DNA of 38,391 nt from an uncultured Ruminococcus sp. (GTDB lineage: Bacteria; Bacillota; Clostridia; Oscillospirales; Ruminococcaceae). Positions 2,664-35,001 of the stretch are shown here, piece by piece. The notes below the pieces were generated by a model. It searched no databases. It was not told the origin of the DNA and saw only the letters and a program-made list of their open reading frames with translations. How positions within the stretch are numbered: the first letter of the stretch is position 1; the number at the start of each line of letters is the position of its first letter. Made by a program: the position numbers and the translations under genes. Location: positions 1 through 38,391 of the forward strand of contig CACZJT010000004.1 in the NCBI GenBank assembly GCA_902781565.1. The letters are read 5' to 3'.

Positions 2664-3497
2664 TCATGCTTCAAGAGCCGCGAGCGCCGCTTCGAGCTCG
2701 CTCTTTGCCTGCTCGTACTGCTCCGCATTGGGGGCGGCACCGTGCCACGATACGTTGTCCTCCATGTAGGAAACGCCCTTGCCCTTGGTGCTCTTCTGAA
2801 CGATCACGGTGGGCTTGCCCTCCACGGTGCTTGCGAAAGCCTTTTCGAGGGAGTCGAAGTCGTGAGCGTCGGCTTCAACAACGTTCCAGCCGAAAGCCGC
2901 GAACTTGTCGGTGATCGGATAGGGCGACATAACGTCCGAGATACGTCCGTCTATCTGCAAGCCGTTGTTATCGACTACTGCAACGAGGTTGTCGAGCTTG
3001 TAGTGAGCCGCGAACATTGCAGCCTCCCAGACCTGACCCTCCTCGATCTCGCCGTCGCCGAGAACGGTGTATACCTTGTAAGCCTTGCCCGAGGTCTTTC
3101 CCGCGAGCGCCATACCGCAGGCAGCCGAGATGCCCTGACCCAGCGAGCCCGAGGACATATCCACGCCGGGGATAGTGATGCAGGGGTGACCCTGTAAGAG
3201 CGCACCGATGTGGCGCAGGCTCTTTAATTCCTCCGTGGAGAAGTAGCCCTTCTGCGCGAGGGTGGAATACAGTGCGGGAGCGGTGTGACCCTTTGACAGC
3301 ACGAACCTGTCGCGGTCAGGGTCGTCGGCTTTTTCGGGGCTAACGTTCATCTTGTCGAAGTAGAGATATGTGAGCGTGTCCGCGATAGAGAGCGAACCGC
3401 CCGGGTGTCCCGACTTGGCGTTGAACACGCCCTCGATTATCCCGAGCCTTACCTTACAGGCTGTGATTTCAAGAGCCTTTTTCTTTGCAGCATCCAT
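2664..3497 (-). CDS. Transketolase, N-terminal subunit
   Basis: Encodes 277 residues: the thiamine-diphosphate-binding half of a split transketolase. Visible signatures are GHPGGSLS near residue 34, DRFVLSKGH, and the GDGEIEEGQVWEA...DNNG motif that binds Mg2+ and the diphosphate. ATG at 3497 is preceded by TTTGGAGG, so the upstream in-frame TTG at 3512 is part of the ribosome binding site rather than a start. The partner subunit begins 19 bp downstream. The upstream beta-propeller-like gene stops 26 bp before this start, so it is probably co-transcribed from upstream. Confidence 0.93.
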   Translation of the reverse strand: MDAAKKKALEITACKVRLGIIEGVFNAKSGHPGGSLSIADTLTYLYFDKMNVSPEKADDPDRDRFVLSKGHTAPALYSTLAQKGYFSTEELKSLRHIGALLQGHPCITIPGVDMSSGSLGQGISAACGMALAGKTSGKAYKVYTVLGDGEIEEGQVWEAAMFAAHYKLDNLVAVVDNNGLQIDGRISDVMSPYPITDKFAAFGWNVVEADAHDFDSLEKAFASTVEGKPTVIVQKSTKGKGVSYMEDNVSWHGAAPNAEQYEQAKSELEAALAALEA

Positions 3498-17758: not shown

Positions 17759-17900
17759 ATTCGGTATTTTGAATACGGAAGTTCTGCACTCATCATGTCA
17801 AAGGCTCACGCGGAGCGAAGCGGGTACGAACAAGTTCGTACTGCATATACGCGGCAAAGCCGCTCCTTTAATTCCGCATTCCTAATTCATAATTCCGAAT
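17759..17900. mobile_element. MITE-like element with 22-bp imperfect inverted ends, upstream of mutS
   Basis: ATTCGGTATTTTGAATACGG (from 17759 to 17780 with two more bases) and, inverted, ATTCGGAATTATGAATTAGG (17879-17900) match at about 18 of 22 positions. Between them are two tight hairpins: GTACGAAC-AA-GTTCGTAC (17824-17841) and GCGGC-AAA-GCCGC (17851-17863). No protein is encoded. It fills almost all of the gap between mutS and the gene ending at 17909. A sequence like its end also follows nrdD (34978-34994). Confidence 0.6.
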
Positions 17901-32532: not shown

Positions 32533-32561
32533 TTGACAAAATCCGCAAAATACTATATACT
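32533..32561 (+). promoter_or_regulatory. Promoter of nrdD
   Basis: TTGACA (32533-32538), 17 bp, TATACT (32556-32561). The -10 box is inside the first NrdR-box-like site (32550-32565). Confidence 0.8.
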
Positions 32562-32714: not shown

Positions 32715-34961
32715 ATGATAGTAAAGATCAAAAAGCGCGACGGAAGGCTCGTGACGTTCAACATCGAGAAGATCGCAAACGCCATATTCAAGGCGGCTCA
32801 GTCGGTGGGCGGCGAGAATTACGAGGAATCCTTGCAGCTTGCGGGCAAGGTCGGCGACCTGCTCATGGAGCGCGGGCTCACTAACCCTACCGTCGAGGAG
32901 ATACAGGACTGCGTGGAAAAGGTGCTCATAGAAGAGGGTCACGCTTCCACCGCGAAATCCTATATACTCTACCGCTCCGAGCGCACCCGCGCAAGAGAGA
33001 TGAATACAAGGCTCATGAAGGTATACGAAGACCTCACCTTCAAGTCCGCCAAGGATAACGACCTGAAACGCGAGAACGCCAATATCGACGGAGATACCGC
33101 TATGGGCACCATGCTCAAATACGGCTCCGTGGGTGCTAAGGAGTTCTACGAGATGTACGTGCTGGACAAGAAGCACGCGCAGGCTCACGCAGACGGCTTT
33201 ATCCATATCCACGACCTCGACTTCTACACCCTCACCACCACCTGCACGCAGATAGACCTCACCAAGCTGTTCAACAAGGGCTTCTCGACGGGTCACGGCT
33301 ACCTCCGCACCCCGAACGATATCTCCAGCTACGCGGCGCTCGCCTGCATAGCGATACAGTCCAATCAGAACGACCAGCACGGCGGTCAGTCCATACCCAA
33401 GTTCGATTACGACATGGCTGAGGGCGTGAAAAAGACCTTCGCGCACCGCTACAGGGACAATATCCACCGCGCACTGGCGCTTATAGCGAACCTCTCCGAT
33501 TCACGCGAGATAAGCGCCAAGATAGAGGAGCGCATAAAGAAAGAGCTGGGCGTTCAGCCCACGCTCGCCAACGACAACGGCTACACCGAGGCGGAGCATG
33601 AGTACCTGCTCGCCTTCGCCGATGAAGCCACTGTCAATAAAATACAGCGCTTCGCCTACAAGACCTCCGTTGATGAGACCGACCGCGCCACCTATCAGGC
33701 TATGGAAGCCCTCGTCCACAACCTCAACACCATGAACTCCCGTGCGGGTGCCCAGACGCCGTTCTCCTCCATAAACTACGGCACCGATACCTCCATCGAG
33801 GGCAGAATGGTCATAAAGAACATACTGCTCGCCACCGAAGCGGGTCTCGGCAACGGCGAAACGCCCATATTCCCAATACATATCTTCAAGGTCAAGGAGG
33901 GCGTGAACTACAACATCGAGGACCCGAACTACGATCTGTTCAAGCTCGCCTGCCGCGTTTCGGCAAAGCGGCTGTTCCCGAACTTCTCCTTCATCGACGC
34001 ACCCTTCAACAAGCAGTATTACAAGGCGGGCGACCCCAACACCGAGATAGCCTACATGGGCTGCCGCACCCGCGTTATCGGCAACGTTTACGACCCCACC
34101 CGCGAGATCGTCACGGGGCGCGGAAATCTTTCCTTCACGACCATAAACCTCCCGAGACTCGGCATACTCGCGGAGCATGACATTAACAAATTCTACGGAC
34201 TGCTCGATAAGTACATGGACCTCTGCATAGACCAGCTCCTGCACCGCTTCAAGATACAGTCCGAGAAGCGCGTCCGCAATTTCCCCTTCCTCATGGGTCA
34301 GGGCATATGGATAGACAGCGATAAGCTCACCGCCGATGACACGGTTGGCGAGGTGCTTCGTCACGGCACGCTCTCGGTGGGCTTCATCGGGCTTGCGGAG
34401 TGTCTTGTGGCTCTTACGGGCAAGCACCACGGCGAGGACGAGGAGTCCCGCAAGCTGGGTCTTGAGATAATCGGCAGAATGAGAAAGCGCATGGACGAGG
34501 AGTCTCAGAAACGCACCCTCAATTTCTCGCTGCTTGCCACCCCCGCGGAGGGTCTTTCGGGACGCTTCGTGAAGATAGATAAGCAGAAATTCGGCGAGAT
34601 AAAGGGCGTCACCGACCGCGATTACTACACCAATTCCTTCCATATCCCCGTATATTTCCCTATAAACGCCTACAAGAAGATAGAGCTCGAAGCGCCCTAT
34701 CATGCCCTCACCAACGCGGGACACATCAGCTATGTTGAGCTTGACGGCGACCCGCTGAACAACCTCCCTGCCTTTGAGAAGATAATCCGCTTCATGAAGG
34801 AGCAGGGCATAGGCTACGGCTCGATAAACCACCCCGTAGACCGCGACCCTATCTGCGGCTACACGGGCATAATCGGCGACAAATGCCCCCGCTGCGGACG
34901 CACCGAAGCGGAGCACAACCGCGTCGCCCACGAACGCCTGCGCCGCATATGCTGCGACTGA
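32715..34961 (+). CDS. nrdD: Anaerobic (class III) ribonucleoside-triphosphate reductase, C-terminally truncated
   Basis: Encodes 748 residues. The N-terminal ATP-cone (KRDGRLVTFNIEKIANAIFKA, about 1-95) is the allosteric site. The large barrel domain follows with the usual HDLDFYTLTTTCTQID, NDQHGGQSIPKFDYDMA and GCRTRV. Near the C-terminus is the four-Cys zinc site (CGYTGIIGDKCPRCG). Normally a short spacer then leads to RRI(T/C)GYLVG... with the glycyl-radical Gly and about 20 more residues. Here the protein reads ...HERLRRICCD and stops, so the radical Gly is absent and no frame downstream restores it. As encoded it should not be active alone. No nrdG is nearby. GGAGG precedes the ATG. Confidence 0.88.
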   Translation: MIVKIKKRDGRLVTFNIEKIANAIFKAAQSVGGENYEESLQLAGKVGDLLMERGLTNPTVEEIQDCVEKVLIEEGHASTAKSYILYRSERTRAREMNTRLMKVYEDLTFKSAKDNDLKRENANIDGDTAMGTMLKYGSVGAKEFYEMYVLDKKHAQAHADGFIHIHDLDFYTLTTTCTQIDLTKLFNKGFSTGHGYLRTPNDISSYAALACIAIQSNQNDQHGGQSIPKFDYDMAEGVKKTFAHRYRDNIHRALALIANLSDSREISAKIEERIKKELGVQPTLANDNGYTEAEHEYLLAFADEATVNKIQRFAYKTSVDETDRATYQAMEALVHNLNTMNSRAGAQTPFSSINYGTDTSIEGRMVIKNILLATEAGLGNGETPIFPIHIFKVKEGVNYNIEDPNYDLFKLACRVSAKRLFPNFSFIDAPFNKQYYKAGDPNTEIAYMGCRTRVIGNVYDPTREIVTGRGNLSFTTINLPRLGILAEHDINKFYGLLDKYMDLCIDQLLHRFKIQSEKRVRNFPFLMGQGIWIDSDKLTADDTVGEVLRHGTLSVGFIGLAECLVALTGKHHGEDEESRKLGLEIIGRMRKRMDEESQKRTLNFSLLATPAEGLSGRFVKIDKQKFGEIKGVTDRDYYTNSFHIPVYFPINAYKKIELEAPYHALTNAGHISYVELDGDPLNNLPAFEKIIRFMKEQGIGYGSINHPVDRDPICGYTGIIGDKCPRCGRTEAEHNRVAHERLRRICCD

Positions 34962-34977
34962 CGCTCAATTGGGGAAT

Positions 34978-34994
34978 ATCGGAATGATGAATTA
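34978..34994. repeat. MITE-end-like sequence just after nrdD
   Basis: ATCGGAATGATGAATTA matches the right inner end of the element 17759-17900 (TTCGGAATTATGAATTA) at 15 of 17 positions. It starts 17 bp after the early nrdD stop. It may be a trace of the event that removed the nrdD 3' end. Confidence 0.4.
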
Positions 34995-35001
34995 AAAAAC
35001 G

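Follow-up and report, generated by a model that had tools for sequence, protein, structure and literature searches.

The nrdD gene in the window, meaning the whole 38,391-nucleotide stretch of DNA from an uncultured Ruminococcus sp. that was analysed, very probably encodes the catalytic chain of a class III ribonucleotide reductase (RNR) that is split in two, with an NrdG-activated radical subunit that would be supplied in trans. Judging from sequence comparisons, a separate small protein almost certainly restores the missing radical piece in this Ruminococcus of the gut or rumen. The gene and its surroundings contain the following features:

32715 to 34961, plus strand: nrdD core gene, encoding the catalytic subunit (748 aa) of class III RNR minus its glycyl-radical segment
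32724 to 32987, plus strand: ATP-cone domain, aa 4-91 (Pfam PF03477, E=1.9e-23)
33072 to 34952, plus strand: NRDD catalytic domain, model positions 1-540 of 562
33243 to 33245, plus strand: Cys177, which corresponds to the second active-site cysteine (TTTC/SLTC/TNCC alignment)
34062 to 34064, plus strand: Cys450, the finger-loop cysteine (MGCR) for the thiyl radical; it aligns with the MGCR motifs of 8p23 and 1h78
34854 to 34895, plus strand: zinc-site cysteines 714, 724 and 727
34929 to 34949, plus strand: HERLRRI, aa 739-745, a segment kept in the truncated chain and present as PFQRIRRI in the small radical protein too
34959 to 34961, plus strand: natural stop codon
35006 to 35027, no strand assigned: GC-rich, terminator-like palindrome about 45 nt after the stop
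32533 to 32561, plus strand: sigma-70-like hexamers TTGACA-17-TATACT 5' of nrdD, weak and not above the shuffle background

The window NrdD is a class III RNR minus one defining feature, the in-chain glycine. It scores 631 bits against the Pfam NRDD model (PF13597), with a match that reaches position 540 of 562, and 1123 bits against NCBIfam PRK07111, with a match that reaches position 710 of 746; its C-terminal zinc site, CGYTGIIGDKCPRCG, is conserved as in fused relatives. The C-terminus reads CPRCGRTEAEHNRVAHERLRRICCD and then TGA, the last residues being HERLRRICCD. In a normal chain the HERLRRI-type segment leads directly into T-Gly-Tyr-Leu, and because fused relatives read FERIRRITGYLVGT at this segment, the window NrdD stops where T-Gly is expected. 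The glycyl-radical glycine is absent from the chain, which ends RRICCD, and no glycyl-radical motif occurs 3' of nrdD in any frame or elsewhere in the window. An earlier sequence-only reading had thus correctly described a frame intact through the zinc site and RRI that then reads CCD and stops, a glycine missing in all downstream frames, and a terminator-like element close behind. Its comparison of the sequence after the stop with a MITE-like element at 17759-17900 comes down to one 15/16-bp match (E about 0.2), which is chance level and leaves the hint of a mobile element unsupported.

The missing glycine would be the expected mark of a pseudogene that had recently lost its C-terminus and its activity, one of two alternatives offered by the sequence-only reading, and an assembly or sequencing error at 34945-34995 might be suspected in a draft genome of 236 contigs. 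Comparison within the genus makes the first most improbable and the second scarcely conceivable. Thirteen genomes were searched, six of them at least 92% complete; 12 hold a single NrdD core apiece, which in every case ends at model position 532-540, with tails (KRISCCD, KRIECC, RRIRLNTT, RRIDFNT and others) that conserve the end point and vary in the last few residues. The end is shared by independent assemblies of 11 other species and by both named Ruminococcus albus isolates searched, 8 and KH2T6, which carry an NrdD of the same truncated type and exclude a metagenome artefact; nor is there a radical motif downstream for a corrected assembly to restore. Core and small gene alike have a median pairwise dN/dS of about 0.09, to be taken as a sign of strong constraint rather than as a precise figure since many pairs are near synonymous saturation. 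Neither a class I or II RNR large subunit (PF02867) nor a second NrdD was found in the 13 genomes, and the truncated NrdD is therefore the only RNR detected in the genus. The window's own genome is 88% complete and likewise yielded no second nrdD, so that an unseen second RNR would be possible judging by that genome alone. The shared end, the low dN/dS and the lack of any other detected RNR together imply that the truncated NrdD must work, and the detached radical ORF that accompanies truncated cores across the family (see below) also contradicts decay. The window nrdD is not a pseudogene, and its early end is not an artefact of assembly.

Beside the truncated enzyme, R. albus 8 and KH2T6 (L282, L283) have a second, deep-branching, intact NrdD of the RRTCGYIG type. 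R. albus so possesses two different class III RNRs, and since some of its strains hold an intact enzyme of another kind, the split pair need not be essential there.

There is strong support for the other alternative of the sequence-only reading, in which the radical domain comes in trans: the window's genome (G000) has separate short ORFs, with the motif RRITGYLVG, that match exactly NRDD positions 533-562, the part missing from its NrdD. The intact chromosomal protein (G000:C141:2985-3248; L003:1339-1608) has 90 aa, MINVTVTGGQLSQAEINEYIIHGQREYPEKTISAIDLNVDGDYVDVDYHFSDVPFQRIRRITGYLVGTLDRFNNAKRSEVEDRVKHSVIS, and is preceded by a GGAGG Shine-Dalgarno sequence of its own (GGAGGAGA just upstream). 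An N-terminal domain of about 50 aa is followed by the NrdD radical segment RIRRITGYLVGTLDRFNNAKRSEVEDRVKH; the NrdD-type pattern is RRITGYLVGTLDRFNNAKR..E..DRVKH. A further intact copy lies on contig C21, and two pieces of a radical protein occur in different frames at G000:C138:1507-1712. The copy on contig C5 (G000:C5:33926-34184; L002), between prophage portal and minor-head genes with a terminase nearby, is frameshifted at a C6 run by either mutation or sequencing error, and was accordingly not counted as functional. At least one small radical ORF is present in 12 of the 13 genus genomes, the exception (G004) being 83% complete.

In an alignment of 55 small proteins, RRITGYLVG, R71, N73, K76, E79, R83, V84 and H86 are invariant. 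The profile aligns (E=1.8e-11) to the C-terminal radical segment of the Prevotella copri NrdD, in a stretch that includes its radical Gly711 (PMC11226230); the glycyl-radical segment of this separate small protein is a homologue of the NrdD C-terminus. Pfam, NCBIfam and PHROGs hold no dedicated model for it, its only matches there being to the ends of NrdD models, and it does not match the GrcA or Gly_radical (PF01228) models. AlphaFold2 models the N-terminal domain as beta-alpha-beta-beta (pLDDT about 80) and, in the monomer, the radical segment with low confidence (pLDDT 55-65). Fold searches with the N-terminal domain gave a best Foldseek E of 0.14 and VIA Z scores of at most 5 (ribosomal S3/HPF-like, ToxR), too low to assign a fold, and homology of this domain to the C-terminal region of NrdD was rejected (hhalign probability 0.6%). 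Five genomes (G312, G197, G392, G440 and G416; L347-L351) encode paralogues that share the N-terminal domain and the PF[DE]RI-R/W-RI segment and lack a glycyl-radical part. Four of these paralogues terminate in ..RAVNN; the group may represent docking domains without a radical.

Co-occurrence across 148 genomes of the family is that expected of a two-subunit enzyme. A detached radical ORF is found in 51 of the 52 genomes with a truncated NrdD, the exception (G028) being 55% complete, compared with 18 of the 84 that have only intact (fused) NrdD. Fisher's test gives p=9e-21 when relatedness is ignored, and an independent-pairs test on non-overlapping tree paths gives seven concordant and no discordant pairs (median p=0.016). 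Where the truncated NrdD is the only RNR detected (26 genomes), the small ORF is present in all but one. A tree of 91 NrdDs, in which the window NrdD belongs to a 16-member clade of truncated enzymes only, requires about 15 changes between fused and split forms, a rough number since the fused NrdDs in the tree are the top-scoring ones only. Across the phylum, at least ten families have related small ORFs.

The 18 genomes in which the small protein accompanies only intact NrdD, and the CC at the end of many truncated chains, could be taken to mean that the small protein is a repair part only and that truncated NrdD uses another radical site, such as its terminal cysteines. This is improbable: the terminal CC is not conserved (RRIRLNTT, RRIDFNT, KRICITENE), whereas the glycine motif of the small protein is invariant; the truncated core is practically never found without the small ORF; and in two genomes the small protein and NrdG form one fused protein. 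Trans supply of the radical glycine remains the preferred reading. In relatives with an intact NrdD the small protein is probably a spare part, by analogy with YfiD for pyruvate formate-lyase (PFL).

The pairs show two gene layouts. In about 37 family genomes a radical ORF of 48-60 aa, with a mostly AGGAGG-type Shine-Dalgarno sequence, lies directly 3' of nrdD, followed in several by nrdG; the cores of this layout have a different tail after the zinc site, and most of 17 loci show an nrdD-small gene operon with a strong Shine-Dalgarno sequence. In about 12 genomes, including those of the window's genus, the 90-aa form with the extra N-terminal domain is located elsewhere; core and small genes are unlinked in the genus, where the small gene has no conserved synteny. 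The L147 locus is intermediate, having the 90-aa form directly after a truncated nrdD. Among truncated NrdDs with the radical gene elsewhere, 22 of 24 keep RxxRI and end 1-20 residues past it. Oxygen cleaves class III RNR at the glycine, which RxxRI precedes (PMC3019208), and the analogous segment of PFL, residues 696-733, is a recognition element for YfiD (PMC8683613). That several truncated genes end almost where oxygen cuts the normal enzyme suggests how dependence on a separate radical protein evolves.

The activase needed by such an enzyme is present. The sequence-only reading had proposed looking for nrdG, and the window's genome encodes it (G000:C56:171-623; TIGR02491, E=4e-45), as do 12 of the 13 genus genomes at scores above the cut-off. 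Two genomes that belong to a single genus carry a natural fusion, one open frame encoding the small protein together with NrdG (L374:2352-3236 in G444 and L373:625-1734 in G420); NRDD positions 533-562 come first and the TIGR02491 match (E=8e-42 and 4e-41) after them. Phages also carry the parts: viral contigs yielded 366 relatives of the small protein, of which 80 were kept, nearly all with the N-terminal domain. The IMG/VR contig L236 encodes an nrdD core (613 aa, with neither ATP-cone nor glycine), a small gene that overlaps it by 4 nt, and nrdG; on three other IMG/VR contigs (L256, L258 and L259) a truncated nrdD without ATP-cone lies upstream of the small radical gene.

These associations also bear on whether the small proteins might serve PFL rather than NrdD, since the genus has a PFL that itself has a detached radical domain. 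PFL, however, has its own, different partner (RVSGYAV..., GrcA3 model), and the small protein matches NrdD models, not PFL models, co-occurs with truncated NrdD, and is found in nrdD-nrdG operons or fused to NrdG. A role with PFL is therefore very improbable.

The two genes and their conservation, the truncated chain, the co-occurrence, the operons, the fusion to NrdG and the lack of any other detected RNR are what the sequences show; a mechanism consistent with them would begin when NrdG places a radical on the small protein's glycine. That protein would dock, perhaps aided by its N-terminal domain, in the slot left by the missing NrdD C-terminus, with its glycine loop beside Cys450; the radical would pass to Cys450, and turnover would proceed as in ordinary NrdD. 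Oxygen would then destroy only a cheap, replaceable subunit of 10 kDa. The window's lineage looks to have come to depend on the small protein, the trans domain there appearing obligatory. More tentatively, and on balance doubtfully, many Clostridia might have an exchangeable radical subunit supplied by host or phage, such that a prophage protein could fire the chromosomal RNR and the radical-less paralogues (L347-L351) could act as plugs that close the slot. If that were so, the oxygen-sensitive part of the enzyme would be disposable, and RNR activity would be set by the supply of a 10-kDa subunit, not by synthesis of the whole enzyme.

Among known systems, the ATP-cone, the 10-stranded barrel with the MGCR radical cysteine, the zinc site and the NrdG partner are those of the P. 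copri NrdD (8p23; PMC11226230), in which, however, the radical glycine (Gly711) is in the same chain, whereas here it is on another polypeptide. The split class II enzyme NrdJa/NrdJb (PMC9669993) is likewise an RNR in two chains by gene splitting, but belongs to another class, and the part split off is an IscU-like/zinc-finger C-terminus rather than the radical-bearing segment. The GrcA spare parts (Escherichia coli YfiD and phage T4 Y06I; PMC8683613) are, like the protein described here, small autonomous proteins with a C-terminal half that duplicates the radical-carrying end of an enzyme; in both systems the segment that immediately precedes the cleavage point stays on the core, and phages carry versions of both. 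The present protein differs in its apparent service to class III RNR instead of PFL, in its NrdD-type motif (RITGYLVG), in its unrelated N-terminal domain, in its expected activase, NrdG, and in that it would replace a permanently missing domain in the window's lineage rather than repair damage. It may thus work like YfiD/GrcA, but its sequence does not place it in that family.

Spare-part radical proteins have been validated only for PFL (PMC8683613), the authors of that study finding it "tempting to speculate" that they are possible for other glycyl-radical enzymes. Neither a split NrdD nor a detached radical domain of NrdD is mentioned in PMC9669993, PMC9531940, PMC11226230, PMC8683613, PMC11528403, PMC4390871 or PMC3019208, and we found no report of a split class III RNR in the open-access papers searched; priority is not certain. 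The small proteins constitute a concrete, testable candidate family for RNR, an essential enzyme, with apparently obligatory lineages and phage carriers, and the split arrangement recurs in many related bacteria and in some of the viruses that infect them. Annotation pipelines could label such NrdDs as broken and miss the small ORFs.

GrcA3 (NCBIfam NF038360) with truncated PFL resembles the arrangement described here in having the radical domain as a separate small ORF; it differs in serving PFL and not RNR, in adjoining its enzyme, and in being a named family, the RNR counterpart having none in Pfam, NCBIfam or PHROGs. Across the family, truncated NrdD and truncated PFL both occur, with no clear joint excess by eye. 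On contig C58 of the window's genome (L377:3222-5354, minus strand), the PFL core ends before its glycine and is followed by an ORF of about 80 aa (2692-2970, minus strand; RVSGYAV, GrcA3) with its own Shine-Dalgarno sequence, a layout that is found also in most congeneric genomes.
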